A stretch of DNA of 64,000 nucleotides from Sulfobacillus acidophilus DSM 10332 (GTDB lineage Bacteria > Bacillota > Sulfobacillia > Sulfobacillales > Sulfobacillaceae): positions 1,178,001-1,242,000 of the forward strand of contig CP003179.1 of assembly GCA_000237975.1 (NCBI GenBank). Direction: 5' to 3'. A program made the translations under genes and the position numbers. Every line of letters begins with the position of its first letter. The stretch's first letter is position 1. Under the pieces are notes generated by a model that was not told the origin of the DNA, did not search any database, and saw only the letters and a list, made by a program, of their open reading frames with translations. Shown piece after piece: positions 4,419 through 32,040 of the stretch.

Positions 4419-4419
4419 G

Positions 4420-6297: not shown

Positions 6298-6300
6298 GTT

Positions 6301-7287
6301 ATGGTTGTCTGGCACAAATCCGCCCCCCCTCCGCCCCGGCGCAAGCGCCACCGGTGGCTCTGGCTCTGGTTGTTGTTCCTCCCGTGGCTCTTTGTAGGGG
6401 AATTGCCGTGGGCGATTCAAGAATCGCAGAACCCCTCCGGGGATCAAGGGTTTTTGCCCATCCCCTTAGTCGCCGCAGCCCCCGTTCCGGCGACAGCCCC
6501 GGCGGAATTACAATATTGGCCGTTGCCGATCTCCGCCGCCCAACAATGGATCGAACAACACGATCCGGGCGCGTTGGCCGGATTGCCCCAGTACGTCGCA
6601 GTCTTGCAGGCCGCCGATGCCGCGGCTCGTCGGTACAATCTCAATCCGTTGTTACTATTAGGAGAATTAGGAGCCGAACAAGCCTTTTTATCCCCCGATG
6701 TTCCGGGTGGCATGGCGCACGCCCTCCAATTTGTGCAAAATCCGTGGGATTACGGGGTGTATCCCGGATCGCCCTTCGCCTTTGATATTGGCCCCCAGCA
6801 AAGCGCCTTGGGCGCGGCCAGTCTGACGGCGCAAATGGCCGATTCCGTCTTACACACCGGACATTGGTCCTGGTCCACGTTTGAAATCGCGTTGGCCCAA
6901 CGCTATGCCCAGGCCTGGCAACCGTGGGTCCGCAACACCTTTGGGCTTTGGGCCGCCATGCAAGCGACACCGGCCATTCACCAAGGGCAGTGGGCCTTAG
7001 CGACGCAAAATTTGACGTTGCCGGTGTGGACGACGATTGCGAACCAAACCCAAACCGACCCGGCACTCTTACATGATGCGACGACGCAACAGGCTGTGGC
7101 ACAAGCCACCAATCCGCTCGCGGTCGCGTCGTCCGTGATCACGTCGATTCAAACCTGGATTACAGCCCATGTGATGGGGGTTCTGATTGGCCTATTAGGA
7201 TCGGTTCGCGCCGGGGAAGTCGCCGGTCTATTAGAAGATGCGGCGACCGTGGTTGAAGATGTCGTAGTGGTGGCCGCCGCCGCTTAA
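6301..7287 (+). CDS. Membrane-anchored lytic-transglycosylase-like wall hydrolase (VirB1-like)
   Basis: One N-terminal membrane segment (WLWLWLLFLPWLFV) follows a basic stretch, so the rest should be outside the cell. Residues ~95-230 look like a lysozyme-type fold: AAARRYNLNPLLLLGELGAEQAF resembles the helix carrying the catalytic glutamate of soluble lytic transglycosylases, and WSTFEIALAQRYAQAW resembles the later helix with a conserved tyrosine. VirB1/Orf14 proteins open peptidoglycan for the conjugation channel, which fits its place right after virB4. The C-terminal ~70 residues end in hydrophobic and acidic stretches. No NlpC/P60 domain is seen, unlike Tn916 Orf14. Confidence 0.6.
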   Translation: MVVWHKSAPPPPRRKRHRWLWLWLLFLPWLFVGELPWAIQESQNPSGDQGFLPIPLVAAAPVPATAPAELQYWPLPISAAQQWIEQHDPGALAGLPQYVAVLQAADAAARRYNLNPLLLLGELGAEQAFLSPDVPGGMAHALQFVQNPWDYGVYPGSPFAFDIGPQQSALGAASLTAQMADSVLHTGHWSWSTFEIALAQRYAQAWQPWVRNTFGLWAAMQATPAIHQGQWALATQNLTLPVWTTIANQTQTDPALLHDATTQQAVAQATNPLAVASSVITSIQTWITAHVMGVLIGLLGSVRAGEVAGLLEDAATVVEDVVVVAAAA

Positions 7288-7312
7288 CCTCTGATTGCGA
7301 AAGGACGTGACG

Positions 7313-7543
7313 ATGATGCGAGGCCCGTTTAATGCGACGCCGAGCAACCCGGACCGGCTCGTCTGGGTGAAAATTCATGACCGGACCGCCCAACATCCGG
7401 ATATTTTGGTGCCGGTGCCGTTACGGATCGATGCGGAAGGCCCACAGGCCGTCGATGCCTATTTGCGAAAATCGGGTCGTTATCACCCGGACACCGAAAC
7501 TTGGTCGTTTTGGCCGTTTTCGGTCGAGGGGGATGACGCATAA
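7313..7543 (+). CDS. Small unknown protein in the conjugation operon
   Basis: The 76-residue product is soluble, with no signal peptide or membrane segment, and is fairly acidic at its C-terminus. It matches no family I recognise. The ATG at 7313 is preceded at good spacing by AAAGGA; a TTG at 7295 is also in frame but lies before that site. Its stop is directly followed by the ATG of the coupling ATPase gene with no spacer, indicating translational coupling and suggesting a role tied to the transfer apparatus. Confidence 0.6.
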   Translation: MMRGPFNATPSNPDRLVWVKIHDRTAQHPDILVPVPLRIDAEGPQAVDAYLRKSGRYHPDTETWSFWPFSVEGDDA

Positions 7544-9610
7544 ATGTGGGTTGCTTGGGCCCTTGCGGCCCTGGTTGTGGGCATTTTGTTGCAACACACC
7601 ACGGGCATTTTCGGACGAGGGGGGCAGATCCTGTCCGGCGGGACGTTTTGGCAAGCTCTACGGCAAGGCCCCCCTGTTTCTAGCTCCCACCCCCCCGTAT
7701 CCGCCCCCCCTGGGATGCCTCATCCCTCGGTATCGGTCTTCCATTCGGGGGAGGCAGCCTCGCCCCGGCTCTTTCCCTCATGGGAGATCATGGGGGAATG
7801 GGGCTTGGGGCTGGGACTCCTGATCTGGGGCCTGTGGGGAACGCTGTTATGGGCCTACAACACGTCGCCAGCCCATCGAACGTGGTCTCGATGGGGCGAT
7901 TGGATGCTCTGGCGATGGCCCATCGTCACTGCCGGGCTGCTATTTCGTCGACCCGATTGGGTGACAGAGGCTTGGCGACGGCATCGGGCGCTTCAGGATG
8001 ATCGGGGACCGACTCTCGCTCCCACGATTCCGCCAACGTGGATGCGCGCCGCCCAAGCGTTGGATCAAGGATTTGCCCAGAGCCTTCCCGACGTGGCGTG
8101 GATGACCACCGAAGACGGTCAACGGACTCGCCGAATGCACATTGTCGCGACCCCTAGCGGGATTGGCCCGCAATGGCCGCATGGCTTTCATGCCCCCACG
8201 ATGGAACACTGGCGGGAATGGGCGGCCCAATGGGGGCCCACTGTGCTCGTTCATGCCGGGGTGGGGGATGCCTGGCAACTCGATGCCTGGGGATTTTTTC
8301 ATCCTCTCCCAACATCGGGTGAATCGGTTCAGCCCATACCCGGCCCGATTTCAACGACGGGGAATCTGCCGCCATCACCCCCATCGGCCTCTGCGGTTCC
8401 TTTATCCCCGGCCACCCAATGGGGGCGGCATAGCTTAAAATGGGGCGATTTAATGGCCCTGGCGCCTGAATCCGCCCCCCCGTTGGCGGAACCCTTAGAA
8501 CCCGCTCGGATCGAGGACGTGATTAGCGTGTTAAATCGTCTAGGACTCCCGGGCGCAAAACCGATAGGGGGCTTCCGGGGATTAACGGTCGATATCATCG
8601 AAATTCGCCCCGAGCCGGCCTGGGCTAATCGGTTGTTAACGCCCACGATGGCGATGACGTTGGCCGGACAACTGGGGCATGGCGATGTTCCGTTAAATAT
8701 TCATTATGTTCGTGGCAAACCTGGGGTGGTGGCGATTGAACGACCGCGACCAGATCGGCGGTTTGTCGATTTAATGACAGTGTTGGCTCAAACCCCAACC
8801 GATACTCGACGCCAATTACAAGGGATGGCCATCCCGATTTGTTTGGGTGTAACTCCCGATGGGCAGGTTGTATGGTCGGATATGACTACCTGGCCGCATT
8901 GCTTAATTGGGGGAACAACTAACAGTGGAAAAACTACAGTCATTTCATCCTTGCTAACCAGTTTAACAATTACCATGCCGCCGTCCGACCTACGGATCAC
9001 CATTGTCGATCCGAAACACGGCTCACAATTTCCGTGGGTTCATCATATGCCACACATTGATGCCGTTTTGCTTGAACCGGATGATGTCGTTGCATTAGTA
9101 GCGCAATGGGCCGATGAGCAAGAAGAACGGTATAAACAATTTGCCGAATTAGGCGTGCCAGATTTAATTACGGCTCGGCAACGAGGAATGGTATCGTTGC
9201 CGTATCGTCTTTTAGTGATTGATGAATATAAAGATCTTAAGGATCGCCTGGATAAAGATGCCATAAAAGAATTTGAACGGAATATTGGCCGATTGGGTCA
9301 AAAAGCACGAGGTGCAGGGTTTTATCTATGGATTGCCACACAACATCCATTAGCCAATATTATTAGTTCGCCCTTAAAAGCAAATCTCCCTACTCGTATC
9401 GCCTTGCGGACATCATCGGCCTCGGATTCTCAAGTGATTTTAGATCGATCAGGAGCGGAAACCTTATTAGGGAAGGGCGATGCGTTATTTCTTCCGGTGA
9501 ATGTCAATGAACCGATTCGAGTACAAACTCCAGCAGTTTTACAAGAATCGCTCTGGGACTATATTATTAAGGCGTGGAAGTTAACCACAAACGGATATCA
9601 AGAAATGTGA
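7544..9610 (+). CDS. FtsK/VirD4-like coupling ATPase (T4CP)
   Basis: Coupling proteins bring the DNA substrate to the mating channel. The 688-residue protein has two N-terminal membrane segments separated by a Pro/Ser-rich loop, a linker domain, and a C-terminal FtsK/SpoIIIE motor: Walker A GGTTNSGKT at 456-464, DPKHG, Walker B LLVIDEYKDL and the later ATQHP segment typical of FtsK-family pumps. This matches Tn916 Orf21-type T4CPs more than chromosomal FtsK, since the gamma DNA-reading domain is absent. Base use changes inside the gene: the part before ~8870 is GC-rich like its neighbours, while the motor-coding part is clearly AT-richer, suggesting mosaic origin. Confidence 0.85.
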   Translation: MWVAWALAALVVGILLQHTTGIFGRGGQILSGGTFWQALRQGPPVSSSHPPVSAPPGMPHPSVSVFHSGEAASPRLFPSWEIMGEWGLGLGLLIWGLWGTLLWAYNTSPAHRTWSRWGDWMLWRWPIVTAGLLFRRPDWVTEAWRRHRALQDDRGPTLAPTIPPTWMRAAQALDQGFAQSLPDVAWMTTEDGQRTRRMHIVATPSGIGPQWPHGFHAPTMEHWREWAAQWGPTVLVHAGVGDAWQLDAWGFFHPLPTSGESVQPIPGPISTTGNLPPSPPSASAVPLSPATQWGRHSLKWGDLMALAPESAPPLAEPLEPARIEDVISVLNRLGLPGAKPIGGFRGLTVDIIEIRPEPAWANRLLTPTMAMTLAGQLGHGDVPLNIHYVRGKPGVVAIERPRPDRRFVDLMTVLAQTPTDTRRQLQGMAIPICLGVTPDGQVVWSDMTTWPHCLIGGTTNSGKTTVISSLLTSLTITMPPSDLRITIVDPKHGSQFPWVHHMPHIDAVLLEPDDVVALVAQWADEQEERYKQFAELGVPDLITARQRGMVSLPYRLLVIDEYKDLKDRLDKDAIKEFERNIGRLGQKARGAGFYLWIATQHPLANIISSPLKANLPTRIALRTSSASDSQVILDRSGAETLLGKGDALFLPVNVNEPIRVQTPAVLQESLWDYIIKAWKLTTNGYQEM

Positions 9611-16887: not shown

Positions 16888-18231
16888 ATGAGTCAAACAT
16901 CCCCGTTATGGCAAGCCTGGTCTCAACAAACGACGGCTCAACAATCGTGGTCTCTGGAAATCGAAGAGGCTTTTAATTGGTTGCGAACTCACGCGGGCGA
17001 TCTTTTGTTAGATCCTACGTCAGCCGATCCAGACACGTTAAAACAATGGATTTGGAAAGCGGTGGCTTCGCGTAATCTTCTTCCCCACGACGCAGATCGC
17101 CTTACCCAACGGCTATTTGACCAACTGACGGGGGCGGGAGTGCTAACCCCGCTGTTTTACGACCCTAGTATTACGGAAATTATGGTCGTGGATACCCATG
17201 TGTATATTGAGCGGCAGGGGCGCATTGTGCCTGCCTTGACCCTCGCCTCATCCAGCGATGCCATTCGATTAGCGGAGCAACTTTGTCATCATTGTCATGT
17301 AGAATATCAAACAACGAATCCGTTAATTAACCTCACGTGGCCGGAAAACGGAGCACGCATTAACATTGTGCATCATGTTTTATCGCCCACGGGGGTAGCG
17401 ATCACCATTCGCAAACGCAACGAAGAGGTGTCTTTGCAATTAGTCGATTTGATTCAAAGCCGGGCCGTCTCGGAAGAAGCGGCCATTTTAATTACCGAAG
17501 CGGCTCGAAGCCATTTGAATTTATTGTTTGCCGGAACACCGGGATCGGGCAAGACCACGTTGCTCCGGGCCTTTGCTCAAACGGCTATTGATCCCACGGA
17601 ACGGGTAATCGTCCTAGAAGATACCGAAGAACTTCGGCTACAATTTCCGCACATGATTGTCTTGATTGGGCAAACCGACGATCCGACGCCCGAAGAACGC
17701 CGCATGGGGATCGTGACCATTCATGAATTATTCCGCAATACGTTGCGCCAACGATTTGACCGCTTGCTGGTCGGGGAGGTCCGAGGGATCGAAGCCTTTG
17801 ATATGTTGCAAGCGGCGATTACCGGGGAGGGGGGAATTTTTTCGACGATCCATTTGCGAACCCCCCATGTCTTTTTAGAGCGACTGTTACTGATTGCGGA
17901 ACGGTATAATTTACGCCTATCGATGCCCTTGCTGGAACGCATTATTCCGAAAGCCATTGATTTTATCATCCAAGTCGAACGGGACGGGGAAGGGCATCGC
18001 CATATCTCGGAAATTGTTGAACACCTTCCCGATGGGCGAGCTCAAACGCTCTATGCGTGGAATCCTCAAACCCATCAATTGGAATCGCGTCTTCCCTTGG
18101 CGGATCATCACCGGGCATGGATGCAACGTCATCAACGATCAGCGTCCCCCGCATCCGCCGTACCGGAATGGCGCAAAGATTTATTGGAACTGTATAGCCA
18201 CTGGGACGATGTGGTACGACCGGCCAGTTAA
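16888..18231 (+). CDS. TadA/CpaF pilus secretion ATPase
   Basis: This VirB11-family hexameric ATPase powers Tad pilus assembly. The 447-residue protein has the N-terminal CpaF domain (GAGVLTPLFYDPSITEIMV, RINIVHHVLSPTGVAITIRK), Walker A GTPGSGKTT at 216-224, an acidic box VLEDTEELRL, Walker B RLLVGEVRGIEAFDML and the histidine box ITGEGGIFSTIH. All key residues are present, so it should be active. It could also serve the type IV secretion channel, since no separate VirB11 is encoded nearby, but the adjacent tadB and tadC argue for the pilus. Confidence 0.92.
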   Translation: MSQTSPLWQAWSQQTTAQQSWSLEIEEAFNWLRTHAGDLLLDPTSADPDTLKQWIWKAVASRNLLPHDADRLTQRLFDQLTGAGVLTPLFYDPSITEIMVVDTHVYIERQGRIVPALTLASSSDAIRLAEQLCHHCHVEYQTTNPLINLTWPENGARINIVHHVLSPTGVAITIRKRNEEVSLQLVDLIQSRAVSEEAAILITEAARSHLNLLFAGTPGSGKTTLLRAFAQTAIDPTERVIVLEDTEELRLQFPHMIVLIGQTDDPTPEERRMGIVTIHELFRNTLRQRFDRLLVGEVRGIEAFDMLQAAITGEGGIFSTIHLRTPHVFLERLLLIAERYNLRLSMPLLERIIPKAIDFIIQVERDGEGHRHISEIVEHLPDGRAQTLYAWNPQTHQLESRLPLADHHRAWMQRHQRSASPASAVPEWRKDLLELYSHWDDVVRPAS

Positions 18232-18246
18232 AGGGGCGAATAATTA

Positions 18247-19155
18247 GTGACGCAAGGAATTACGCTCGTGGTGTGGGGAATCATGGCGATAAGCATCGGG
18301 GGGGCCATCTGGTTGGGCCTCAATTGGCTCACACACCCCCCTACATTACCCGTTAAATCTGCATCGTCTCCCGCCGCCAAGCGGGCCCCCGAATCCACCG
18401 TCAACTCATCATCATCTGTCGCCATGCCTCGATGGGGAAGCCTGGTTTCGTCTTGGGAGGTAAAATTGATCACTCGGGCCATTCGGGGAGGCATCGCGGG
18501 AGGACTTTTGCTTCTAATTTTTGGGATTCTCCAAAACGCAGGAGCCGCGATAGCGTTTGGGATCATTGGATGGATGGCCCCGGCCTTGATCGCAGAAATC
18601 ATGGGCGAAACCCGCTGGGCGCGCCTAGATCGTTCGAGTTTCGCGGCCATGACCAATGCCCATTTTTTTCTCGAACGGGGGACGCCCGTGGTTGAAACAT
18701 TTCGGCGGGTTTTCGAGAGTGCCCAACCCAGTTTTCGGCGCTGGTTTCGACCGATGCTCTTAGGAGAGGCGGCAGGGCAGCCCCTCGAATCCACTCTGCA
18801 TCAACAGGCCGAAGCATTACAACATCAAGAACTTATGGTAGCCGCGGATATTTTGGCCGCCGAACGTCAATATGGGCAGACCGCTGCGACGTTTCATCGG
18901 TTGCTCACCTTGTGGAACGACCGAATAGAATTAGACGGCGAACGGCGGGGGACGTTATCAACCTTTGTCTTGATGGGTCACCTCTTTATTTTGATAGGGA
19001 TAACAGGCTTTTTCTATTTCGTGGTGGCAAATCCTGTAGTCCGGTCGCATGCGCATACCGGCGCCGGAGGGATGGTGATCGCTATTAGTGCCTGGCTTTT
19101 GGCAGGGGCTGTGGCCTGGCATACCCGTTTTTTGCGGGCTATGCATCAACGATAA
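18247..19155 (+). CDS. TadB-like pilus assembly platform protein
   Basis: The 302-residue membrane protein has an N-terminal anchor, a Ser/Pro-rich linker, a middle pair of hydrophobic segments (~80-110), a cytoplasmic GspF-like helical domain (VVETFRRVFESAQPSFRR and following) and two C-terminal membrane segments. This is the TadB layout; TadB and TadC form the inner-membrane platform on which TadA acts. The GTG start at 18247 has AAAGGGGCG upstream. It is followed 24 bp later by tadC. Confidence 0.8.
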   Translation: MTQGITLVVWGIMAISIGGAIWLGLNWLTHPPTLPVKSASSPAAKRAPESTVNSSSSVAMPRWGSLVSSWEVKLITRAIRGGIAGGLLLLIFGILQNAGAAIAFGIIGWMAPALIAEIMGETRWARLDRSSFAAMTNAHFFLERGTPVVETFRRVFESAQPSFRRWFRPMLLGEAAGQPLESTLHQQAEALQHQELMVAADILAAERQYGQTAATFHRLLTLWNDRIELDGERRGTLSTFVLMGHLFILIGITGFFYFVVANPVVRSHAHTGAGGMVIAISAWLLAGAVAWHTRFLRAMHQR

Positions 19156-19179: not shown

Positions 19180-19989
19180 GTGACAAGAATTTCCGAACCA
19201 GAAGTATTACTCGTTATCGGGATCTTTTGGGGCATTTGGGGATGGCTATTACTGACCCTCCTCGAGACCCCCCGCGCCTTGTCGTGGCGAACCAAGAATG
19301 CGGAAAGCTCTCGCTTTCAATGGATTGAATCTCGATTGTCACCGTTCCTGTTGGACGAATACCGCATTTTATCTCTGACCCCCGGACAACTTCTCGGAGT
19401 CGGGGGCCTCATAGGATTCGGAACGGCCCTCTTGTTAATCGTGGTTCATCATCCCCTTTTAGCCCCGCTGGGATTTGGAGCAGGACTCTGGTTTGGCCCC
19501 CAATGGTGGATTCAATCACAATACCAAACCTTTCAACGCCAATTGCGTCAGGATTTTCCTACGATCATTATGTTGCTCCAGATCTATTTTGATCTAAATA
19601 TGTCCTTACTCGATGCCCTGCGGCGCATTCGTGGCGCCTTATCGAGTAGCGGGCGTCGAGAAATTGATCGTATCTTAAGTGGATTTGCCGAAGATCGGGG
19701 GGATGAATCCCTCACTGAATGGGGCCGACGGAGCCATATTGTTGAGTATCAATTATTAGCTTCCACGCTGATTGCTCAACGGGGAATGCAATTACGCAGC
19801 GATATGCTCACCCCACTGAATACGTTGTTAAATACGGCGCGGCAACAAGCCTTGCGAAGCCAAACCCGGCGATTAAATGCTTTGGCGGTATTAACGCCCA
19901 GCCTAGCCGTTTTTGCCGTCGTTATCCTTTATTTTTTCAGCATGATTGCGCACATTTCCGGCCTCTCCCTCGTTACACACTATTTTTAA
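19180..19989 (+). CDS. TadC-like pilus assembly platform protein
   Basis: The 269-residue membrane protein has an N-terminal anchor, two hydrophobic segments at ~65-110, a GspF-type helical domain (LRQDFPTIIMLLQIYFDLN, LDALRRIRGAL) and a C-terminal membrane segment. Length and topology match TadC and the gene directly follows tadB. It starts with GTG at 19180. It ends this transcription unit: an excellent intrinsic terminator lies 43 bp downstream. Confidence 0.8.
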   Translation: MTRISEPEVLLVIGIFWGIWGWLLLTLLETPRALSWRTKNAESSRFQWIESRLSPFLLDEYRILSLTPGQLLGVGGLIGFGTALLLIVVHHPLLAPLGFGAGLWFGPQWWIQSQYQTFQRQLRQDFPTIIMLLQIYFDLNMSLLDALRRIRGALSSSGRREIDRILSGFAEDRGDESLTEWGRRSHIVEYQLLASTLIAQRGMQLRSDMLTPLNTLLNTARQQALRSQTRRLNALAVLTPSLAVFAVVILYFFSMIAHISGLSLVTHYF

Positions 19990-20066: not shown

Positions 20067-20124
20067 GATCGCGCCCCCCTGATAGGGGCCGGCGATCTAA
20101 AACTTCAACATGGAGGTACAAAAC

Positions 20125-20358
20125 ATGGTACAAGCCTTGCGGAATCTCGCCATTCGGGGGTACGCTGCCTGGATTGCTCGCACCGACACTCGGGGGGAAG
20201 GTCATACGGGGTCCAATATTATTTGGATTATCGCGGTCATCGTTCTAGGAGGGGTCATTTTAGGCTTTGTCGCCGGGGCCGGAACGGCTTGGATGCACAA
20301 CAACTTTAACACCGTCACGCAGATGAATCCCGGCAGTAATGTAACCACAACGGGTTAA
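20125..20358 (+). CDS. Flp/Tad-type major pilin candidate
   Basis: The 77-residue protein has a short basic leader, a 25-residue hydrophobic helix (IIWIIAVIVLGGVILGFVAG) and a short polar tail. Aligning RGEG-HTGSN with Flp prepilins places the leader-peptidase cut after GEG, with Thr at +2 as in many Flp pilins but Asn at +5 where glutamate is usual. Two prepilin peptidases are encoded nearby. ATG 20125 is chosen because GGAGGT lies 8 bases upstream; ATG 20110 precedes that site. The gene stands alone between two strong hairpins, consistent with separate, high expression of the structural subunit. Confidence 0.72.
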   Translation: MVQALRNLAIRGYAAWIARTDTRGEGHTGSNIIWIIAVIVLGGVILGFVAGAGTAWMHNNFNTVTQMNPGSNVTTTG

Positions 20359-20442: not shown

Positions 20443-21399
20443 ATGCGCGACAGCACGCTATGGAAGCGGCCCTGGCGATGGGCGGGGGAGGGGACTACCG
20501 CAGGATCGGTCATCGCCTTAATTTTGTTAACCTTTGGCTTAACGGGCGGCATAGCACTCCAGCGAGTATTGCATACGGATAACGTATTAACCCAAGCCGC
20601 AACAATTGCGTTGCAATCCGAAGAGCAAAACGGATGTTGGACCGCGGCGACCACGCAAGCGGTAAGCAACACCTTAAAAGCCGGGGGGCTTGTGCCCAGC
20701 GCGGCTAAAGTAACCCAGTATACTGGCTCCACGCAATCCTATGGACAACCCGTCGTGGCCGGAATTCAATACCCCCTCCAAGTCTCGGTCGTCACTATGC
20801 CCGTTATGACCATTCCTGTCGCTTCGGCAGAATCGGGATCGAGTTTTTATGTTCCCAACGTAAGCGGAGGAACCAACACCGGGTGTACGACGCCGACGCT
20901 GGGGTATTGTCCGCAAACGACCTATCAGACACAATGCACACCCGCCCACCAAGTCTGTCAACCCGTCACATCGCAACAATGCGTCCCGGTCACACAACAA
21001 GTCTGTGGGACATCCTATCAAGAACAATGCGGATATCGGCCCGTTACGTCATATAGTTGTGGCCCCCAATCATCATGCGGATGGACGACACGGACTGTTT
21101 GTTCTCCGACAGAGCGATACGGGCTACTTTGGTGCCTCGGTACACCCAGCGACCCCTATAAATATTGTCACTACGGATGGTATCCAACGACGACTTGTAC
21201 CCCGCAATCGGTATACACTTGCCAAACGACGTATACTTGTGGCTGGCACACGAGCACCCAGTATTCGTGTACAACCGTTCCGGTTACCTCCTGCTCCTAT
21301 CAAACGACCCAATCGTGCCACCTCGTCACCACAACCCAATGCACCACCGTTCCTGAATCGTGTCAACAAGTTCCGGTCACCGTGAACACTTGCGGATAG
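20443..21399 (+). CDS. TadE-like anchored protein with cysteine-rich tail
   Basis: The N-terminus (GEGTTAGSVIALILLTFGLTGG) is a prepilin/TadE-like hydrophobic segment after a short basic leader, a possible substrate of the prepilin peptidases. The exported C-terminal ~175 residues of 318 are built of irregular Cys/Thr/Gln/Val units (TTTQCTTVP, SQQCVPVTQQVC) with about 22 cysteines in total. It may be a minor pilin or pilus-tip protein held by disulfides; this is inference. Tad pseudopilins normally lack such a tail, so the fusion is unusual. ATG 20443 follows GGGGAAATCAGG. Confidence 0.62.
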   Translation: MRDSTLWKRPWRWAGEGTTAGSVIALILLTFGLTGGIALQRVLHTDNVLTQAATIALQSEEQNGCWTAATTQAVSNTLKAGGLVPSAAKVTQYTGSTQSYGQPVVAGIQYPLQVSVVTMPVMTIPVASAESGSSFYVPNVSGGTNTGCTTPTLGYCPQTTYQTQCTPAHQVCQPVTSQQCVPVTQQVCGTSYQEQCGYRPVTSYSCGPQSSCGWTTRTVCSPTERYGLLWCLGTPSDPYKYCHYGWYPTTTCTPQSVYTCQTTYTCGWHTSTQYSCTTVPVTSCSYQTTQSCHLVTTTQCTTVPESCQQVPVTVNTCG

Positions 21400-22034: not shown

Positions 22035-22745
22035 ATGCATAATGCCATCAAATTCGTGATTGCGACTAGTATCGCCGGGGCCGCGACATTCGCGGCCTGG
22101 CATGCAACTCGGCCCGCCGCTTTAACGTCCGTCGCCGTCGTCACCCAACCCGTGGCGGCTTGGACTCCCTTGTCGCCCACGAGTGTCGCCTGGCTCCGTG
22201 TAGCCAATCCGCCCGCCGGCGCCATTACCCAGCCCCAGGCTATGGCCCATTTCATCACGAATGCTCCCCTAGCCGCCGGGACGATCCTCACCCTCAACGA
22301 TAATTGGTCCGTCAACCCCAATGGCCTTCATGCGGGGGAAGTCCAATGGATTGTTCCAGTCACCGAATCGACGAGCGGGTTGGCCGGCGTCGGACAACGA
22401 GTGGATGTTTGGGATGTGGCTAATGGGCAACCGATTTTGATTGCCCAAGGGGTTCGCGTCATTGGACTCTTTACCAGTAACGGACAACCGATTCTGGCCT
22501 CGACCCCTGCGATGGCCGCCAGTAGTACTGGCGATTCCACGAATAATCCGGGGTCTGTGGGGCTAATGGCCTTGGCGGTTCCGGCTCAGGATATGTCCGT
22601 CTTATTAGGTCTGGCGAATCCTGCTTTTGTCGTCGATCCGAATGCGACCCATTTCGTTTGGCGATGGGGCGGGCCGCCCTCAGCCCCCCCCGCTAAGGTT
22701 CCGGGAACCCCTCCGCCTGCCCCGGCGTCGAATCCCAAGCCATGA
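22035..22745 (+). CDS. CpaB/RcpC-like SAF-domain pilus protein
   Basis: The 236-residue protein has an N-terminal anchor (residues ~5-25) then a SAF domain: VVTQPVAAWTPLSPTSVAWLRV, APLAAGTILT, and a second part VPVTESTSGLAGVGQRVDVWDV typical of CpaB/RcpC. In diderm bacteria CpaB works with the secretin; in monoderms it probably organises the pilus at the wall. The C-terminus is Pro-rich. The stop codon overlaps the prepilin-peptidase start (ATGA), so the two are translationally coupled. Confidence 0.8.
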   Translation: MHNAIKFVIATSIAGAATFAAWHATRPAALTSVAVVTQPVAAWTPLSPTSVAWLRVANPPAGAITQPQAMAHFITNAPLAAGTILTLNDNWSVNPNGLHAGEVQWIVPVTESTSGLAGVGQRVDVWDVANGQPILIAQGVRVIGLFTSNGQPILASTPAMAASSTGDSTNNPGSVGLMALAVPAQDMSVLLGLANPAFVVDPNATHFVWRWGGPPSAPPAKVPGTPPPAPASNPKP

Positions 22746-23182
22746 TCCGGTTGAGCGCCCCGATATCGTATCTCCCGACCGTCATTCTATGGTTCGCAAC
22801 GGGCATCGCAGCCTGGCACGATTGGCGCGTTCATCGAATCCCCCCGTTTTGGATAGGGGTGGCGGTGGGAACGACGGGGATTTGGCTGCTTCTTGGGGTC
22901 TGGCCGATATCCCGCTTGCTTTGGGGGGCGGGAATTTGGGGGTTTTATGAACTCGGATTGCGCAGGATGCCCGAATCCGTGGGATGGGGCGATGTCCAGT
23001 GGGCGACCTTGCTCATGATTGGGCTAGGCCCGTGGGGCATTATCCCCATTCTCGCCGGACATCTGGGCATCGAATATTTCCATTGGCGATACCCCCATCG
23101 GGTGGGGCATCCGTGGATGCCCGGCGCATGGGGGGGTCTCACCGGCTTGGGACTCTTTTGGATCATTTGGGTACACGGATAA
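22742..23182 (+). CDS. Prepilin peptidase, CpaA/TadV type (A24)
   Basis: This aspartic membrane protease cleaves prepilin leaders. The 146-residue polytopic protein has the two family aspartates in context: HD27WRVHRIP near the first membrane segment and GWGD83VQ, the GxGD motif. Length matches the short CpaA/TadV type without a methylase domain. Likely substrates are the Flp-like pilin (20125) and the TadE-like protein (20443). It overlaps cpaB by four bases. Confidence 0.87.
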   Translation: MIRLSAPISYLPTVILWFATGIAAWHDWRVHRIPPFWIGVAVGTTGIWLLLGVWPISRLLWGAGIWGFYELGLRRMPESVGWGDVQWATLLMIGLGPWGIIPILAGHLGIEYFHWRYPHRVGHPWMPGAWGGLTGLGLFWIIWVHG

Positions 23183-24566: not shown

Positions 24567-26009
24567 ATGAACACCAAACATCCGATAATTGCCCCGTTAC
24601 TTGCTCTCACCGCGTTGCTGGCTTTAGCGCCTTTAGCCGGATTCACTTTGCATGGCGATGTCTTCTGGGATTTAGCGACCGGACGATGGGAATGGACGCA
24701 TCACGCCGTCTTGCGGTGGAATCCGTTTTCGTGGGGAGATCACGCCCCCTGGGTCAACAATGAGTGGGGCTGGGGTCTCATCCTTTATACCGCTAGTCGG
24801 TTCGGCCCGTGGGGGCTGTTGAGCGTGGCCGGGCTGGGTATTGTCGGGTGGTGGACCGGATTACGGGCCGTGATGCGGCGTCTCGCCCTCCCTTCGACCG
24901 CGCAATTGGGGATCTTAATTTTGAGCCTGCCCTTCGTCTGGCCGGGCTGGAGCGACCGCCCGCAAATTTGGGCCTATGCCTTCGCTGTATGGGGATGGGT
25001 CGTCTTATGGGATTGGGCCGATCCCCGACATGTCTGGACCTGGCGAGATGGCATCGCCCTTCTCGGCTGGATTCTGTGGGTTCAAATTCATGGGTCTTGG
25101 ATTCTCATCCCGGTGTGGGCCGTCATTTTGTCCACGCGACCGGGGGTCGCCCGCCGCCGGTTGTGGGGGGCGGCGATAGGAGCTTTGGGGCTGGCGGCGG
25201 TCGATAATCCGTGGGGATGGGCCTATGTGCAAAAGGCCCTGTTCACGTCCAGTTCCTCGACGATTGCATCGGCTATCGTCGAATGGTTGCCCCCGTCTTT
25301 TCATCAGGTGTTCGGGGTTTGGCTCCCGTGGATGATTCTCTTAAGCATCTTAACCTGGGGGATGGCCACCCGGCCTTTGTCGATCCGGGTCGAAGGCTGG
25401 CGGTGGATGATGCTAGCGGGTCTGGTAGGAGCTGCCCTTTATGCGGTCCGGTTTGAGCCGTATTTACCGTTGGCGTTGGCGTTGGGATGGCCGGCCCCGT
25501 CGATCCGATTCCCCGCCATTAAGCCCCCCCGATGGGTCGCTCCCGCCCTGTGGGGGATCGTCGGCATGGGGATACTGCTCATTGGCATTCGGATCGCCCC
25601 ATTGCGAACCGCATCCCTGACGGCCCCGCCCTTTGTCGCGGCGAATGTCGAGCTCAATCCCAGTGCCGAACCGGTGGCGGCGGTCGTCTGGCTGCAGCAC
25701 CACCCCGCCCAAGCCCGGCGCGTCTTCAATAATTATCGCATTGGGGGCTATTTGACGTGGATGGGGATTCCCGATTGGATTGACGGGCGCACCGGGTTTT
25801 GGATTCAAACGAGTCATCGATTCACGGCCTATGCGACGGTGATCGACGATCATACGTCGCCCCGTCCGGTCATTGCCGCCGCGCACCCGACCGCCATTCT
25901 CGCCCCCACAACCTCCCCGTGGATTTGGGGCATCACGGGGTGGCAGGGATGGCATGTGGCTTGGCATCAACAAGGCTGGACGATTTTGGTATCCTCAACC
26001 GGCGGATGA
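24567..26009 (+). CDS. GT-C-like polytopic membrane protein
   Basis: The 480-residue protein has ~9-11 membrane segments. The first extracellular loop, GDVFWDLATGRWEWTHH...NPFSW...WVNNEWGWGLILY, matches the acidic-loop signature of a widespread GT-C-like family. The C-terminal exported part has RVFNNYRIGGYLTWMGIP and WIDGRTGFW, also typical of those proteins. GT-C enzymes transfer sugars from polyprenyl-linked donors outside the membrane. A role in glycosylating pilins or surface proteins of this element is plausible but unproven. Confidence 0.65.
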   Translation: MNTKHPIIAPLLALTALLALAPLAGFTLHGDVFWDLATGRWEWTHHAVLRWNPFSWGDHAPWVNNEWGWGLILYTASRFGPWGLLSVAGLGIVGWWTGLRAVMRRLALPSTAQLGILILSLPFVWPGWSDRPQIWAYAFAVWGWVVLWDWADPRHVWTWRDGIALLGWILWVQIHGSWILIPVWAVILSTRPGVARRRLWGAAIGALGLAAVDNPWGWAYVQKALFTSSSSTIASAIVEWLPPSFHQVFGVWLPWMILLSILTWGMATRPLSIRVEGWRWMMLAGLVGAALYAVRFEPYLPLALALGWPAPSIRFPAIKPPRWVAPALWGIVGMGILLIGIRIAPLRTASLTAPPFVAANVELNPSAEPVAAVVWLQHHPAQARRVFNNYRIGGYLTWMGIPDWIDGRTGFWIQTSHRFTAYATVIDDHTSPRPVIAAAHPTAILAPTTSPWIWGITGWQGWHVAWHQQGWTILVSSTGG

Positions 26010-26051
26010 TATAATGAACATCAAGAAATATCAAACGAGGAGGGGCTACGG

Positions 26052-26522
26052 ATGGCGACGGATATGACGCTCAAAATTCCAACCCTGGCGGATTTATGGC
26101 GATGGATTCGGCGCGGGGACTCTCTTGCGCCTCACGAATCCCTTCAACCGTCCGTGATGCCATCCCCGCCCCTCTCGGAGAAGGCTGACGCCCCCCGCAT
26201 TCGACGCATTCGGCCAGTCCCTCCGATGCCCGGCGTCGCGTCGCCGGGGGTGTCGCCGACCCCCATCGTCTCCAACCGGCCCGCGCCGGCCCCGACGCAG
26301 GACCAAGCGGCCCAAACTCGCGAACGCATCGCCGTGCGATGGATTCAGCAACTCCCCTCCGGCACGCCCATTCACGTCCGAACCTTGGCCCAAGTCGGGC
26401 CGTGGCCGATAGGGACAACGTGGCATTTAGTACAACGGATCGCGGCTCGGTATCCGCACCTCGTCGAAGTCAAAGAACAGGAACAGGGGGGCAAACGGAT
26501 TCGAGAATGGTATCGGCGCTAA
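26052..26522 (+). CDS. Unknown protein with possible winged-helix tail
   Basis: The 156-residue protein has a Pro-rich, probably disordered middle (~30-90) and a compact basic C-terminal ~65 residues (IAVRWIQQLPSGTPIHVRTLAQVGPW through KRIREWYRR), whose predicted helices and turn would suit a small winged-helix fold. No membrane segment is seen. It may be a DNA-binding accessory protein. A textbook terminator follows six bases after its stop. AGGAGGGG precedes ATG 26052. Confidence 0.5.
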   Translation: MATDMTLKIPTLADLWRWIRRGDSLAPHESLQPSVMPSPPLSEKADAPRIRRIRPVPPMPGVASPGVSPTPIVSNRPAPAPTQDQAAQTRERIAVRWIQQLPSGTPIHVRTLAQVGPWPIGTTWHLVQRIAARYPHLVEVKEQEQGGKRIREWYRR

Positions 26523-26527
26523 CCGCC

Positions 26528-26552
26528 CGCCCGCTTCGGCGGGCGATTTTTT
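26528..26552 (+). terminator. TTCG-tetraloop intrinsic terminator
   Basis: CGCCCGC (26528-26534), loop TTCG, GCGGGCG (26539-26545), then T6. The next gene starts at once after the T run, so that gene must be expressed by readthrough or from an internal promoter. Confidence 0.93.
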
Positions 26553-26918
26553 ATGACCTGGATTACTTGGATTATTATTGCCAGCATCTTAATTGTGGGC
26601 CACGAACTGGGCCATGCCGCGGCCATGTTGTGGTATGGTCGCCTGCCCGACGCCCTCGTCGGGCGATGGTGGGGAATTGGCCTGCGGTGGAATATCCACG
26701 GATTATCGGTTCGAGCGCTTCGACACACCCTCTGGGCGGGGCCGTTAACCGAATTCGGGTTAGGCGTGATAGGCTATCTGGGGCATCCTCAGCATCCGGC
26801 ATGGATTCTTTTGGCAACGCTGGATACGGCCATCCAATTGATTCCTTGGGGCTTTTGGCCCAACGACGGCACCCGCCTCTGGCGCACTCGGCCCCTTATC
26901 AATCCTGATGTTGACTAA
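26553..26918 (+). CDS. Mini site-2 protease-like membrane metallopeptidase (M50)
   Basis: The 121-residue membrane protein has the zinc motif H17-E-L-G-H21 inside its first membrane helix and WPND105GTRLW near the end, matching the NPxxDG third-ligand motif of S2P proteases. It is far shorter than usual M50 enzymes (200-400 residues) and has no PDZ domain, but all three metal ligands and the catalytic Glu18 are present. S2Ps cut membrane-embedded regulators or signal-peptide remnants. No clear anti-sigma substrate is seen nearby. There is no good ribosome site: the ATG abuts a terminator T run. Confidence 0.7.
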   Translation: MTWITWIIIASILIVGHELGHAAAMLWYGRLPDALVGRWWGIGLRWNIHGLSVRALRHTLWAGPLTEFGLGVIGYLGHPQHPAWILLATLDTAIQLIPWGFWPNDGTRLWRTRPLINPDVD

Positions 26919-26949: not shown

Positions 26950-27402
26950 GTGTCCGCGTTTATCGAGCGCCAACGGCGCTATCCCGATCTTTTGGCGTAT
27001 CCGGGGTGGGACGATCTCATGCACAGTCAACTGGCCTGGGGCTTTGACTGTGGACCGGGATGGTTGCCGCTGATTGATATCGCTCTCGCAACCCTCAACT
27101 GGGGGTCACAACACGCCCCCACCGCGACCATCCATGTGCGCCAAGTGAAAGAAAAATTTGGGCGCTTAACCATTTATGCGGATTTGTCGAACGTTCCCCC
27201 GCCCGTTCGCGATGGCATCCTGTCCATTTTATCCCATTTAGCCGACCTCTCAACCTATACGTGCGAACAGTGCGGCCAAGCGGGGGCCCTGCGATCTACG
27301 GGAGGCTGGTGGCAGACTCTGTGCGATGCCTGTGAAACCGCTTGGCAAACTGCTGATGAACCGTTAAGCCAATTTCGCATCCGGTTAGGACGGGAGTTCT
27401 GA
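26950..27402 (+). CDS. Zinc-ribbon-containing hypothetical protein common in mobile elements
   Basis: The 150-residue protein carries the pattern CGPGWLPLI...VRQVKEKFGRLTIY...YTCEQCG...WWQTLCDAC, which I know from a family of uncharacterised phage and mobile-element proteins. The paired CxxC motifs (CEQC and CDAC) should bind zinc. Function is unknown. GTG 26950 is chosen because GGGAGG lies just before it; an in-frame ATG at 26908 would overlap the previous gene. It overlaps the following gene in a TGATG junction. Confidence 0.6.
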   Translation: MSAFIERQRRYPDLLAYPGWDDLMHSQLAWGFDCGPGWLPLIDIALATLNWGSQHAPTATIHVRQVKEKFGRLTIYADLSNVPPPVRDGILSILSHLADLSTYTCEQCGQAGALRSTGGWWQTLCDACETAWQTADEPLSQFRIRLGREF

Positions 27403-27929
27403 TGACAGTCGCCCTGGCTATTCTGAGCAGCGTGAGTTGGGGAGGCGTGGCTTTTTATCAAACGTGGCGCGATTGGCGAGATCGCCTCTTGCCGCCCGGC
27501 CCCAGTCTCTTGGCCGTCGCCATCACGTGGCTGACAGGATGGAGCGGATGGCATTGGTCATCGGCCATTTTTCTGCACCACGTCGAAGCGGGCCTAGGAC
27601 TCGGGGTGTTGTGGGCGCCGCTGTGGTGGTGGGGAGGTTTAGGGCTGGGGGATCTCGGCACGGCTATCGCACTCGGACTCAGTTTAGGCACCCTGCCTGC
27701 GTTCGCGGCGTTAGGGATGGGTCTTGTCGCGACGCTGATCGGCTGGGGCAGTCTGCGAGGCGTGCGGGCCATCACCGGACGCTCCCGCATCGAAACGCCT
27801 CAATCCGACGGGACGCCGCCCCTCATTCCGCTGGGGCCGGGCCTCTGGTTGGCAGGGTGGGGGGTGTGGCTGTGGTTGGTATGGATTCATAATGCTCCCG
27901 CCCACGGTCTGCTGATGATTAATCGATGA
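27402..27929 (+). CDS. Second prepilin-peptidase-like protein (A24)
   Basis: The 175-residue polytopic protein keeps both A24 aspartates: WRD24WRDRLLPPG after the first membrane segment and GLGLGD84LGTAIALGL, the GxGD motif; TPPLIPLGPGLWLAGW resembles the last conserved segment of prepilin peptidases. It is distinct from the enzyme at 22742 and lies outside the Tad block, in a cluster with the S2P-like gene. It may process a second set of pilins, or act as a GxGD protease on another substrate. Confidence 0.72.
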   Translation: MTVALAILSSVSWGGVAFYQTWRDWRDRLLPPGPSLLAVAITWLTGWSGWHWSSAIFLHHVEAGLGLGVLWAPLWWWGGLGLGDLGTAIALGLSLGTLPAFAALGMGLVATLIGWGSLRGVRAITGRSRIETPQSDGTPPLIPLGPGLWLAGWGVWLWLVWIHNAPAHGLLMINR

Positions 27930-28856: not shown

Positions 28857-30029
28857 ATGTCCTCACGCCCTAAAGAACCCCACGCCGCCGCCCCCCGGAA
28901 ACTCCCGTCGGGCCGTTGGCAGGCGCGGGTCACGTATTGGGATCGGGAGACCGGACAACGCAAAGAATTGACGCGCACCTTTGCCACCGAGCGGGAAGCT
29001 AAGAAATGGGCGAGAGAAGAAGAAGTTAAGTTACGGGAAACATGGCTTTCCCCACAGACATTATTAACTCTGACTGTCAACAACGTATTGGACCAATGGT
29101 TGGATGCCAAACGACTAAAACCAGTAGCTCGTTCCACCCTAGAGAGTTATATCGGACATCTCCGACATGTTCGACAGGCATTTGGTAATCAACTCGTTAA
29201 AGATATTAGCCCTAGTGATATACAAAAATTATATGCGTCCTTGAGTCATACCCATAGTCCGCGAACGGGTCAATACGTGGCGACACTTCTTCGCAGTGCA
29301 TTAGATTGGGCTGTTACGATGGATTTGATACCGACCAATCCAGCCCGAAAAGTTTCGAAGCCCCAAGTCCCTCGACGTGAAATGATTGTTCTCACTCCAG
29401 AAGATGCCACAAAATTATTACGGGTAGCCCAACAACATCGCCTGTATGCTCTGTGGTGGTTCATTGCTCTTATGGGAGTACGTAAAGGCGAGGCATTAGG
29501 TCTGTATTGGGAGGACATTGATTGGAATACCAAAACTGTTACAATCCGACGCACACTATCAGGGTCAGGGCGTCGGCGGTACCTATCTGCCCCTAAGACT
29601 CATCATAGCACCCGAACATTGGCGATGCCCGATATATTGATTCAAGTATTAAAACAATGGAAAGAGCAACAACAGAAAGATCGTATAATTGCTCAAACGA
29701 ACTGGGTCGAAACGCCTTATGTTTTTACAACCAAACGAGGAACACCGTGGGATGCGAGTGCGGTGACCCATCATTTTAAACGTGTCTTGCGTCAAGGAGA
29801 TTTTCCGACCCATTGGCGTATTCATGATCTGCGACACGCGATGGCAACACATTGGCTGGCTTCTGGTATTTCACCCAAAGTTGTGAGCGAACGGCTTGGT
29901 CATGCGAGTGTGGCTTTTACGCTTCAAGTGTATGCCCATGCATTGCCGCATCAACAAGCAGAGGCCGCCGAATACATGGCTGCTCGTCTATTAGGGCGAT
30001 CCACACACGATCCACACGAACCAACATAA
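28857..30029 (+). CDS. int: Tyrosine recombinase (ICE integrase)
   Basis: The enzyme catalyses integration and excision of the element. The 390-residue protein has an N-terminal arm-binding domain (GRWQARVTYWDRETGQRKELTRTF), a SAM-like core-binding domain (~65-150) and a catalytic domain with R209 (GVRKGEAL), a hairpin lysine (APKTHHSTRTL), H323-DLR326, H349 (LGHAS) and nucleophile Y359 (LQVYAHAL). All catalytic residues are present. It lies ~115 bp from the selC junction and reads toward it, the usual arrangement at an ICE end. Base use is AT-richer than in the pilus genes. Confidence 0.93.
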   Translation: MSSRPKEPHAAAPRKLPSGRWQARVTYWDRETGQRKELTRTFATEREAKKWAREEEVKLRETWLSPQTLLTLTVNNVLDQWLDAKRLKPVARSTLESYIGHLRHVRQAFGNQLVKDISPSDIQKLYASLSHTHSPRTGQYVATLLRSALDWAVTMDLIPTNPARKVSKPQVPRREMIVLTPEDATKLLRVAQQHRLYALWWFIALMGVRKGEALGLYWEDIDWNTKTVTIRRTLSGSGRRRYLSAPKTHHSTRTLAMPDILIQVLKQWKEQQQKDRIIAQTNWVETPYVFTTKRGTPWDASAVTHHFKRVLRQGDFPTHWRIHDLRHAMATHWLASGISPKVVSERLGHASVAFTLQVYAHALPHQQAEAAEYMAARLLGRSTHDPHEPT

Positions 30030-30141
30030 CCCATCAAATCGAACATCATCCTCAAAACCCAGAGGAATCCCAAAACGCTTGAAAAGACTAACGTAGAATA
30101 TTGGAACACCGTCGTTCACAACCCAAAAAACATACCATCCT

Positions 30142-30162
30142 AAAACTTCAAATCCGGTGGCT
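30142..30162. other. Right attachment junction (attR) of the ICE
   Basis: Homology to tRNA-Sec begins around the anticodon loop, right after the unrelated sequence TAAAA, so the integrase crossover lies here. The element should carry a matching selC 3' half that restores the tRNA at its left end, outside this window. The exact core length cannot be read from one end only. Confidence 0.7.
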
Positions 30163-30208
30163 GGCCTTAGAGGTCAGCGGTGGGTTCGATTCCCACATAC
30201 TCCCGCCA
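30145..30208 (+). tRNA. selC: 3' half of tRNA-Sec (selC), split by the ICE
   Basis: From CTTCAAATCCGG onward the sequence matches a selenocysteine tRNA: anticodon loop CTTCAAA (anticodon TCA), 3' anticodon strand TCCGG, a long variable arm CTGGCC-TTAGA-GGTCAG, T arm GTGGG-TTCGATT-CCCAC, an eight-base acceptor strand ATACTCCC, discriminator G and CCA. The eight-base acceptor strand is diagnostic of tRNA-Sec. The expected 5' anticodon strand (CCGGA) is replaced by TAAAA, and the D arm and 5' acceptor strand are missing, so the gene is cut at the anticodon stem-loop. Confidence 0.85.
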
Positions 30209-30223
30209 ACTTAAGCCCCGTAA

Positions 30224-30250
30224 GGCTTCCGAGGATCGGAGGCCATTTTT
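30224..30250 (+). terminator. selC terminator
   Basis: GGCTTCCGA (30224-30232) and TCGGAGGCC (30236-30244) form a 9-bp stem with one G-T pair and a three-base loop, followed by ATTTTTATTT. It lies 16 bp after the tRNA end and probably is the original terminator of selC. Confidence 0.75.
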
Positions 30251-31242
30251 ATTTGGGTTCAAAATATCCAAAAATGCCCTAGCCATATTCCGATCGTCTT
30301 CGCGAGCCGTCACCAAGAGATGGCGGAGCCGAAAGACCGCAGCAAATGTCAGTGACAGTAGAGACGCGCCGAGCGATGATAACAGCACCACGAATTTTGA
30401 TGCATCAATGGGCGGTCGGGGCGAGCTCATCGATTTGCGTGTCGTGGTTGGAGGCGATATATGGCAATATAATGAGTGTAGACGTGATCTCGACAGACGA
30501 CGCATCCGGAACAGAGGGAAGCCGCAATCGCCGACCCAAGTGAAGGATTTCCTGTTTCCCTTGGGGGGCATTGCCACTTGGCGCGAAACGGGCAAAATCG
30601 GGGTTGGTATGGCGAGCCATTCGGATGATCTAAAGGAGGCCGTCGAGGTCAAACGACGAGCGGCTCGGGCTGAGAGTCTAGTATCGGAGATAATGACCAG
30701 GCCAAAGCCTTTGCGCAGCGGGATCGTTATTGGCTCTAGGTCGTCTGGAATTTCGGTAGTGCCCGTCCCTACGCGATTCCAATCGCTGACCCCTTTAGAC
30801 GAATATTAGCGCGGAGCAAGGAGGGGTTATGATCCCTAACCCCGAAATCGCCTAGGTGACACTGATCTGCGGATCGCGCGCTGTCTTAGTCGATACCACC
30901 AGTTAAAGGGGCGATACGCTAGTGATAGGCTGAACTGGCTCAACCTGGGCGACTTTTTCACACCGATGGGCGGCGGCCAGCGGTTGTTAGGAGCTAGCCG
31001 CGATGTCGATGGGTTGTCCGTGTGGATTCCCCCACGATGGCATGAGCAAGGTGCGGGTGCCCATCTTTCTGGATAAATTGTCCAGGATGGACTATGTTCT
31101 TGACCGTTCTACTGGAATACCTGCACCACGATCAATAAATTAATCCCCGTGCCGCAGGCCGCGGATTCGCGCCTCCTCAAACCGAGTTCCTAAGTGTAAT
31201 TAAAGGCACGTTAACGGATCGTTGGAATTAACGAAAGGGTGC
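30251..31242. other. About 1 kb without a recognisable gene
   Basis: Open frames exist on both strands (the longest about 210 codons forward and 160 reverse), but none has a good ribosome site together with a recognisable domain, and the longest begins inside the tRNA. The stretch probably holds decayed remains between the ICE junction and the defence genes. Confidence 0.5.
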
Positions 31243-32040
31243 ATGAACATTCAACTTTTAACATATTTTATAGTTAGCAAGGACGAGTTTTTGATTTTTC
31301 GGGCAAGCGAAGGTAAACTCGGTCAGTTGATAAATAAATTGCCAGCCGAGTATCGACGATGTTACATAACGGATCAAGATTTACTAGATCGGGTTTCAAC
31401 GTTCAAGCGTTCTTATAGCGACATATTGAGGGAAGCTTATATCCCGGATGAGCCCAAGATAAAATCAGCGGAATTTGCTGAGATTCTATCGTATTTCCTC
31501 GTGAAGGAGCATTATCAACCCAACTATGTTCTCAAGGGGCCCAAAAAGTGGCGTTGGAAAGAGGACCGCAATCAGCCCGTCCACAAGACCGATATTGTCT
31601 TATTTGCGAAACAGGCGGATAGCCCTTCTAACGATGATCTTGTTGTGGCGGTTGAGGTGAAGGCTAAGGCTACGCAGAAAAACTCCTACGACCCGATTCA
31701 TGACGCGGTAAAAGGCGCCCATGATGATTCCACTAGGCGCCTTGCAGCTACGATCAACTGGTTAAAATCACAGTACGTTAAGAGAAACAATCCCGAGGCA
31801 GTGGAGTATCTTGAACGGTTCCGAAATCCAGTTGAACACGGTTCGTATCAAAAACACTTTAATGCGGTGGCGGTTGTTGATGAACAACTAGCAGAAGCGG
31901 AATTGACGCGGCCACGCGATTTAAGTCCATATTCATTTTCAGACCCGTTTTGCATCATTGTTGTATCAATCCCTAGTCTCAAGACGATGTACGAAAACGT
32001 TTACGAAAAAATTCCTGCGTCGGGGGGGGACTTATTTTGA
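31243..32040 (+). CDS. hamA: HamA-like nuclease (DUF1837) of a Hachiman defence system
   Basis: In Hachiman antiphage systems HamA is a DUF1837 effector nuclease that works with the helicase HamB. The 265-residue protein has a PD-(D/E)xK-like core: an early E (AEILSYFL), D117 in HKTDIVLF, and E138-V-K140 in VAVEVKAKA. Length (~280 usual) and coupling to a ~1000-residue helicase fit Hachiman. ATG 31243 is close to GAAAGGGTG; a TTG at 31222 is in frame upstream. Its stop overlaps the next start (TTGA). The pair has lower GC than both flanks, suggesting separate transfer. Confidence 0.72.
   Translation: MNIQLLTYFIVSKDEFLIFRASEGKLGQLINKLPAEYRRCYITDQDLLDRVSTFKRSYSDILREAYIPDEPKIKSAEFAEILSYFLVKEHYQPNYVLKGPKKWRWKEDRNQPVHKTDIVLFAKQADSPSNDDLVVAVEVKAKATQKNSYDPIHDAVKGAHDDSTRRLAATINWLKSQYVKRNNPEAVEYLERFRNPVEHGSYQKHFNAVAVVDEQLAEAELTRPRDLSPYSFSDPFCIIVVSIPSLKTMYENVYEKIPASGGDLF

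Follow-up and report, generated by a model that had tools for sequence, protein, structure and literature searches.

Can a protein of 121 residues be a working site-2 protease (S2P), and if so, what would it cut? The question is raised by an open reading frame of Sulfobacillus acidophilus DSM 10332 (protein P0001), located within the window, by which we mean the whole 64,000-nucleotide stretch of DNA that was analysed. The initial annotation had seen in it a miniature S2P, close to the minimum for an M50 core, with HELGH and WPNDG ligands intact and a start placed right on the T run of a terminator. The gene stands at the end of a Tad-like cluster, in the following setting (positions are those of the window):

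16888-18231, plus strand: CpaF/TadA-like ATPase (PF00437, E 2.6e-24; phmmer 1e-46 to 1e-51 against the CpaFs of relatives' Tad loci)
18247-19155, plus strand: TadB-like membrane protein, named by order and look
19180-19989, plus strand: TadC-like membrane protein, named likewise (matching relatives' TadC-like genes at 8e-5 to 7e-6)
20110-20358, plus strand: Flp-like small pilin, recognised by eye; no Pfam match over cut-off
22742-23182, plus strand: prepilin-peptidase-like (A24, TadV/CpaA) protein (19.5 bits, under the curated 26.5)
25986-26015: promoter-like site before the 156-residue upstream gene
26052-26522, plus strand: upstream gene, 156 aa, no Pfam match, with the look of a small DNA-binding protein by eye
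26524-26552, plus strand: intrinsic-terminator-like hairpin with its T run
26553-26918, plus strand: the mini-S2P gene, ATG to TAA, 121 aa
26950-27402, plus strand: downstream gene, no Pfam match (scanned with a longer start at 26908), C-terminal part Cys-rich by eye
27402-27929, plus strand: second prepilin-peptidase-like (A24) protein (18.6 bits, under the curated 26.5)
28857-30029, plus strand: tyrosine integrase (PF00589, E 3.1e-26)

The pilus genes are accompanied by a Cys/Thr-rich repetitive protein (20443-21399; no Pfam match over cut-off), and the cluster has the peculiarity of holding two A24-like genes (22742 and 27402), both of them weak Pfam matches.

The frame carries the residues ascribed to it, with HELGH at 17-21 (H17, E18, H21) and D105 within PWGFWPNDG (98-106), as well as E67 within GPLTE (63-67) and Q95. 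Its codon-usage log-odds reach +42.9 bits, against -3.4 to -30.1 for the other five frames, and this, together with 35 aligned relatives, rules out a chance open reading frame. The upstream gene ends in a TAA (26520-26522) that shares the frame of the protease, hence the ATG at 26553 is the first ATG, GTG or TTG available to it and no earlier start exists. This start does lie on a terminator-like T run: a stem of eight pairs, all GC (26524-26545), is followed by ATTTTTT directly against the ATG. Such sites show no excess in the 2.7 kb scanned (3, versus 2.6 in shuffled sequences), and the local RNA fold around the hairpin is not unusual (z -0.96). The Shine-Dalgarno match of the gene is weak (-5.5 kcal/mol; the median of the 35 relatives is -10.8, and four are weaker), and the GTG at 26950 of the next gene is preceded by a strong Shine-Dalgarno-like sequence (-12.7).

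We modelled P0001 with AlphaFold2 from an alignment of 14 sequences (the window protein and 13 from genome contigs), and obtained a mean pLDDT of 87 and a pTM of 0.78. The model (helices 3-27, 53-77, 83-96 and 105-111; strands 35-40 and 43-46) reproduces the S2P core, that is, a helix, a re-entrant beta hairpin (35-46) and two further helices, with HELGH inside the first helix and a loop of five residues (78-82) between the second and the third. Foldseek ranked mjS2P of M. jannaschii (PDB 3b4r) first, with a probability of 1.00 and an E value of only 0.047, aligning residues 1-121 on its residues 38-164; no match reached E <= 0.001. Unlike P0001, mjS2P is a chain of 218 residues with more transmembrane helices (six), a Ser at position 67 and a shorter Asn-Asp stretch. 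VIA-align gave Z 10.1 for SpoIVFB (2.6 A over 111 residues), 10.1 for A. aeolicus RseP (117 residues) and 8.7 for mjS2P (114 residues), with unrelated chains reaching 6.7 at best, values that are middling by themselves, as for helical bundles a Z under about 13 may mean little. A profile of 25 family members, run against all PDB sequences, found mjS2P at 3.1e-5 and SpoIVFB at 0.0011 with the HExxH and DG motifs aligned, and the case for the S2P fold lies in the agreement of these sequence matches with the structural ones. Counting along this alignment places H17 at residue 43 of SpoIVFB and residue 54 of mjS2P, and D105 at residues 137 and 148, respectively; the zinc-coordinating residues of SpoIVFB are given as H43, H47 and D137 (PMC11486902). 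The correspondence suggests, indirectly and through the alignment, that D105 lies near the HELGH residues rather than away from them. In the model, the beta hairpin matches the re-entrant loop of SpoIVFB, which is described as a hairpin to which the substrate adds a strand (PMC11486902).

The larger S2Ps share this core and differ from P0001 in what surrounds it. SpoIVFB (B. subtilis, M50B, PDB 8vjl) has the same core, re-entrant hairpin and HExxH plus DG ligands, whereas its 288-residue chain holds further transmembrane helices and a CBS domain (PMC11486902); in its NLLPIWPLDG motif the Asn-Asp stretch is two residues shorter than in P0001, and its position 67 is a His. RseP/Eep of subgroup I likewise has the catalytic core, but within a protein of over 400 aa with a PDZ domain and four transmembrane segments (PMC9672952). 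The additional helices and the CBS domain of subgroup III are absent from P0001 (three helices, 121 aa), and so is the PDZ domain that subgroup I inserts between core helices, where P0001 has the five-residue loop. P0001 also departs from two canonical motif details. The S2P motif of helix 2 reads GxxxN/S/G, and E67 takes the place of the N/S/G. The extended motif NxxPxPxLDG (PMC9672952) calls for Asn where P0001 has Q95. Taken together, model, structural matches and family profile support the miniature S2P identity, and calling it close to the minimum was fair, P0001 being the three-transmembrane core common to S2Ps (PMC10202637, PMC4597795) and little else.

How widespread is this short form? 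With P0001 alone as query, 20 of 154 class genomes gave matches (that in G018 seems to be false), and the family profile, at E <= 1e-8, reached 29 of the 42 genomes of the order, 26 of them with at least one open frame under 200 aa. Outside the order (the 154 genomes of the class and a phylum sample of 398 genomes) the listed matches were mostly frames of about 250-500 aa, i.e. ordinary M50 proteins, and a few sat in frames of 167-224 aa. Within the genomes sampled, the short form was seen only in the order around Sulfobacillus. A search of 72,556 plasmid records matched only pY0017 and pL15 of S. thermotolerans, both typed as conjugative, whose 'M50 family metallopeptidases' are 37% and 41% identical to P0001 and annotated at 130 and 103 aa. 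These copies adjoin a phospholipase-D-like gene and lie near a DUF4406 gene, and the feature lists around them name no Tad genes. On pL15 the match is split in two, and a frame change seems to have cut the copy short.

For the conservation analysis we aligned 36 members of 119-141 aa (starts chosen by us), namely P0001, 34 genome copies and the pY0017 copy. The table leaves aside the truncated L019, the broken L031 and L096, the stop-containing G090:C167 and the later L097 and L098; the weak match in G018 (L022) and one of the two in G101 (L028) looked false when translated and were dropped. H17, E18, H21, G29 and P98 are invariant (36/36, and with them HExxH), and D105 is present in all members except L016, which has G. 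Position 67 is an acid throughout (27 E, 9 D), as opposed to N (8) or S (3) in 11 full-length M50s of the same phylum, all of which have Asn at position 95; that comparison set was filtered on an NxxP...DG pattern, and none of the 11 was lost by the filter. The Asn of the NxxP motif is kept by the other 35 members, so that Q95 occurs only in P0001, and between this Asn and the Asp the members exceed the full-length M50s by one or two residues, with L077 and L085 as exceptions. The mini-S2Ps are a distinct subfamily by their residues: GxxxN/S is replaced by GxxxE/D, and most members have one or two additional residues ahead of DG.

Most of the profile is also covered by its matches to full-length M50 proteins of the phylum, and the curated databases respond to the family unevenly: P0001 scores 13.8 bits against PF02163 (M50; cut-off 27.2) and has no NCBIfam match, 19 of 25 members match PF13398 (Peptidase_M50B) at E <= 0.1 (best 1e-7), and 14 of 25 match DUF3267, a putative zincin peptidase. 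A fragment of a larger M50 gene was ruled out by the length of 119-141 aa of the 36 members and by the Shine-Dalgarno sequences that most relatives have of their own. Origin as a phage gene was likewise rejected, as no phage match was found with a relative as query and none was confirmed in viral contigs with the family alignment; PHROGs held no match for the 25 members.

Across the family, the mean number of K+R per member is 0.0 in the N-terminus, 4.1 in loop 1, 0.4 in loop 2 and 3.6 in the C-terminus. By the positive-inside rule, the charges in loop 1 and the C-terminus place the N-terminus probably outside.

The gene had been placed 'in the ICE', a claim that stands in part. The window does hold conjugation-type ATPases (HerA/TraG-like and FtsK-like; PF19044/PF01935, PF01580) and the tyrosine integrase, but no relaxase of the two families searched (PF02486, PF03432) was found in the genome at E <= 0.1, and no direct repeat of at least 14 bp that could mark att sites links the integrase end (29901-31300) with 72 kb on the left. 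A search for tRNAs gave no lead. As far as this evidence goes, the element is plasmid- or ICE-like and integrated at most. Upstream stretches encode a ParB-like protein and a DNA polymerase III beta-like protein, and a second Tad-like cluster lies there too. Behind the integrase lies a Hachiman anti-phage system (31222-35060, plus strand; HamA by PADLOC at 1.8e-64, HamB at 1388.7 bits). The conjugation-like set of the window (genes at 1246, 3609, 4420 and 7544, spanning 1246-9610) is found again, complete or partial, in G091, G109 and G110 (loci L073, L074, L075, L089, L091 and L093), with a VirB4-like match also in G093. G091 and G093, which carry a related VirB4-type gene, have no mini-S2P family match at E <= 1e-8; in G109 and G110, which carry one too, the family copies are on a different contig from it or more than 0.5 Mb distant.

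Do the pilus genes travel with the protease? In the window, 8.3 kb separate the mini-S2P gene from the cpaF-like gene ahead of it, and 0.5 kb from an A24-like gene that follows. Over the order we counted the copies within 5 kb of cpaF or tadE, using as queries a cpaF taken from a linked locus (P0002) and the tadE of Pfam. The count covers matches at E <= 1e-8 in open frames under 200 aa, which make up 37 of 42 places (five longer ones were dropped); it takes in the L019 and G090:C167 copies and leaves out the lower-scoring L096, L097 and L098. Seven of the 37 copies are so linked, against 0.22 expected (P 2e-9 if the copies were independent and contig ends are ignored), a P value that overstates the link, because the seven stem from about two ancestral arrangements. 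The other 30 copies have no Tad marker within 5 kb; the window copy is one of them, as its cpaF is too distant for the query.

In the first arrangement, that of G104 (L080, L086), the protease gene ends within the start of a tadG-like gene (an ATGA overlap) and tadE comes next, the TadG-like protein of L080 matching PF13400 at 3.7e-13 and that of L086 being 73% identical to it. In the second, found in five genomes of one genus (L046, L051, L052, L053, L055), the mini-S2P gene lies 2.2-2.4 kb from cpaF and is convergent to the Tad genes. Three further genomes of the same genus, with short contigs (L047, L048, L060), show an adjoining open reading frame of about 600 codons that looks like a membrane protein, and a DUF192-like gene occurs near the L060 copy, a gene of the same kind adjoining the L055 copy. 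The low-scoring copy of G106 (L096) stands 1.65 kb before tadE, its frame apparently lost before DG. Elsewhere the contexts vary: in one genus the copies sit between dehydrogenase-like and formate-THF-ligase-like genes (by eye). Beside the mini-S2P genes of two genera there is a coiled-coil-looking protein (L029:10724-11131, minus strand; L056:9400-9813, plus strand); a zinc ribbon was detected in the L029 neighbour, to which the L056 neighbour was likened by eye. Some relatives are draft or metagenome contigs with possible misassembly, and the phmmer set of open reading frames contained a longer overlapping frame in place of the protease, which makes it uninformative on protease presence; presence was judged from the family searches. 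The second Tad-like cluster lies about 35 kb upstream (L069:12348 to L030:1213, chromosome about 1158348-1163213); its CpaF is related to that of the window (3e-77), and the family search of the own genome found no mini-S2P there. We consider the Tad link, with about two arrangements and the window's own, to be suggestive, and the pilus connection made by the initial annotation is, as such, supported by gene neighbourhoods.

We tentatively favour the view that P0001 is a genuine minimal S2P of the M50B type, most likely cleaving single-span membrane proteins of the Tad/Flp machine; we infer its zinc binding, proteolysis, topology and substrates, and hold the whole to be quite possible. The protein would span the membrane with three helices, N-terminus outside and C-terminus inside, and be oriented as the larger S2Ps are. 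H17, H21 and D105 would form the predicted zinc site, with E18 as the general base, and the re-entrant hairpin, which lies between the first two helices, would pair with a strand of the substrate, as in SpoIVFB and RseP. As the outer gate helices and the PDZ or CBS domain of larger S2Ps are absent, the protein probably acts together with other membrane proteins. In this orientation it should take single-span segments with the N-terminus in and the C-terminus out, a description that TadE/TadG-type proteins, judging by their N-terminal hydrophobic stretch, would fit; these proteins are direct neighbours in the clearest operons. Candidate substrates would be TadE/TadG-type pseudopilins, or unassembled or leftover subunits. 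The removal of cleaved prepilin leaders, proposed at the outset, is unlikely: prepilin peptidase cuts before the hydrophobic stretch (PMC3244431), hence the leader itself is no membrane helix.

The excess near Tad genes and the ATGA overlaps with tadG-like genes in L080 and L086 also bear on the suggestion that the mini-S2Ps perform a general membrane clean-up, in which remnant signal peptides or small membrane proteins are degraded and the Tad neighbourhood is incidental. Such a role is described for E. coli RseP, which clears signal peptides and degrades small membrane proteins (PMC8144685, PMC10470546), and it would suit the 30 unlinked copies and their varied contexts. It would also suit a genome in which a DXR-like gene (by eye) adjoins one for an RseP-like protein of 412-442 aa, the mini protein hence being an addition; on balance, with the Tad excess and the overlaps against it, we think this rather unlikely. 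Somewhat less credible still is that the window copy has no activity or is barely expressed, being silent or decaying cargo. Q95 replaces the Asn of all other members, a residue of the extended LDG motif, to which a part in substrate binding is ascribed (PMC9672952), the start abuts the terminator behind a weak Shine-Dalgarno match, and damage occurs among other copies (L016 without its Asp, L096 and pL15 apparently out of frame). The frame of P0001, however, has neither stop nor frameshift, retains HELGH and D105 and carries a strong coding signal; several other genes of the element have Shine-Dalgarno matches weaker than -5.5 kcal/mol (starts assumed); and N364A in E. faecium RseP is reported to have changed bacteriocin sensitivity and binding only slightly, protease activity being a different test (PMC9672952).

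The initial annotation leaned towards regulated intramembrane proteolysis, in which the protease would release a membrane-bound regulator of transfer or pilus genes and so couple membrane signals to transfer. Anti-sigma factor cleavage is described as the best-known role of bacterial S2Ps (PMC10202637), and immediately upstream of P0001 there are a promoter-like site and a possible DNA-binding protein. That protein, however, shows by eye nothing like a transmembrane segment and matches no Pfam family; inspection of the neighbours revealed no membrane-bound regulator, and those scanned included neither a recognisable anti-sigma factor nor a site-1 protease. P0001 itself is too small to contain a PDZ or CBS domain. 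For these reasons we rate such coupling as improbable. Among known S2Ps, RseP/Eep of Enterococcus faecalis raises production of the sex pheromones used in plasmid conjugation (PMC10202637).

Among the top-ranked open-licence literature, judged by title or the start of the abstract, no work dealt with an S2P acting with Tad/Flp pili, and equally none with the mini-S2P family (searches on minimal S2Ps, S2P motifs, mobile elements, and Sulfobacillus plasmids, Tad and ICEs). A more far-reaching reading, which we put forward as doubtful, is that the mini-S2Ps may be the smallest working intramembrane metalloproteases and, in some lineages, dedicated Tad/Flp proteases that cut TadE/TadG-type pseudopilins. 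If they are active, a three-helix core would suffice for intramembrane metalloproteolysis, with neither gate helices nor accessory domains, and the mini-S2Ps would offer a compact system for studying mechanism and structure; if Tad proteins are among their substrates, a widespread adhesion machine would gain a proteolytic step.
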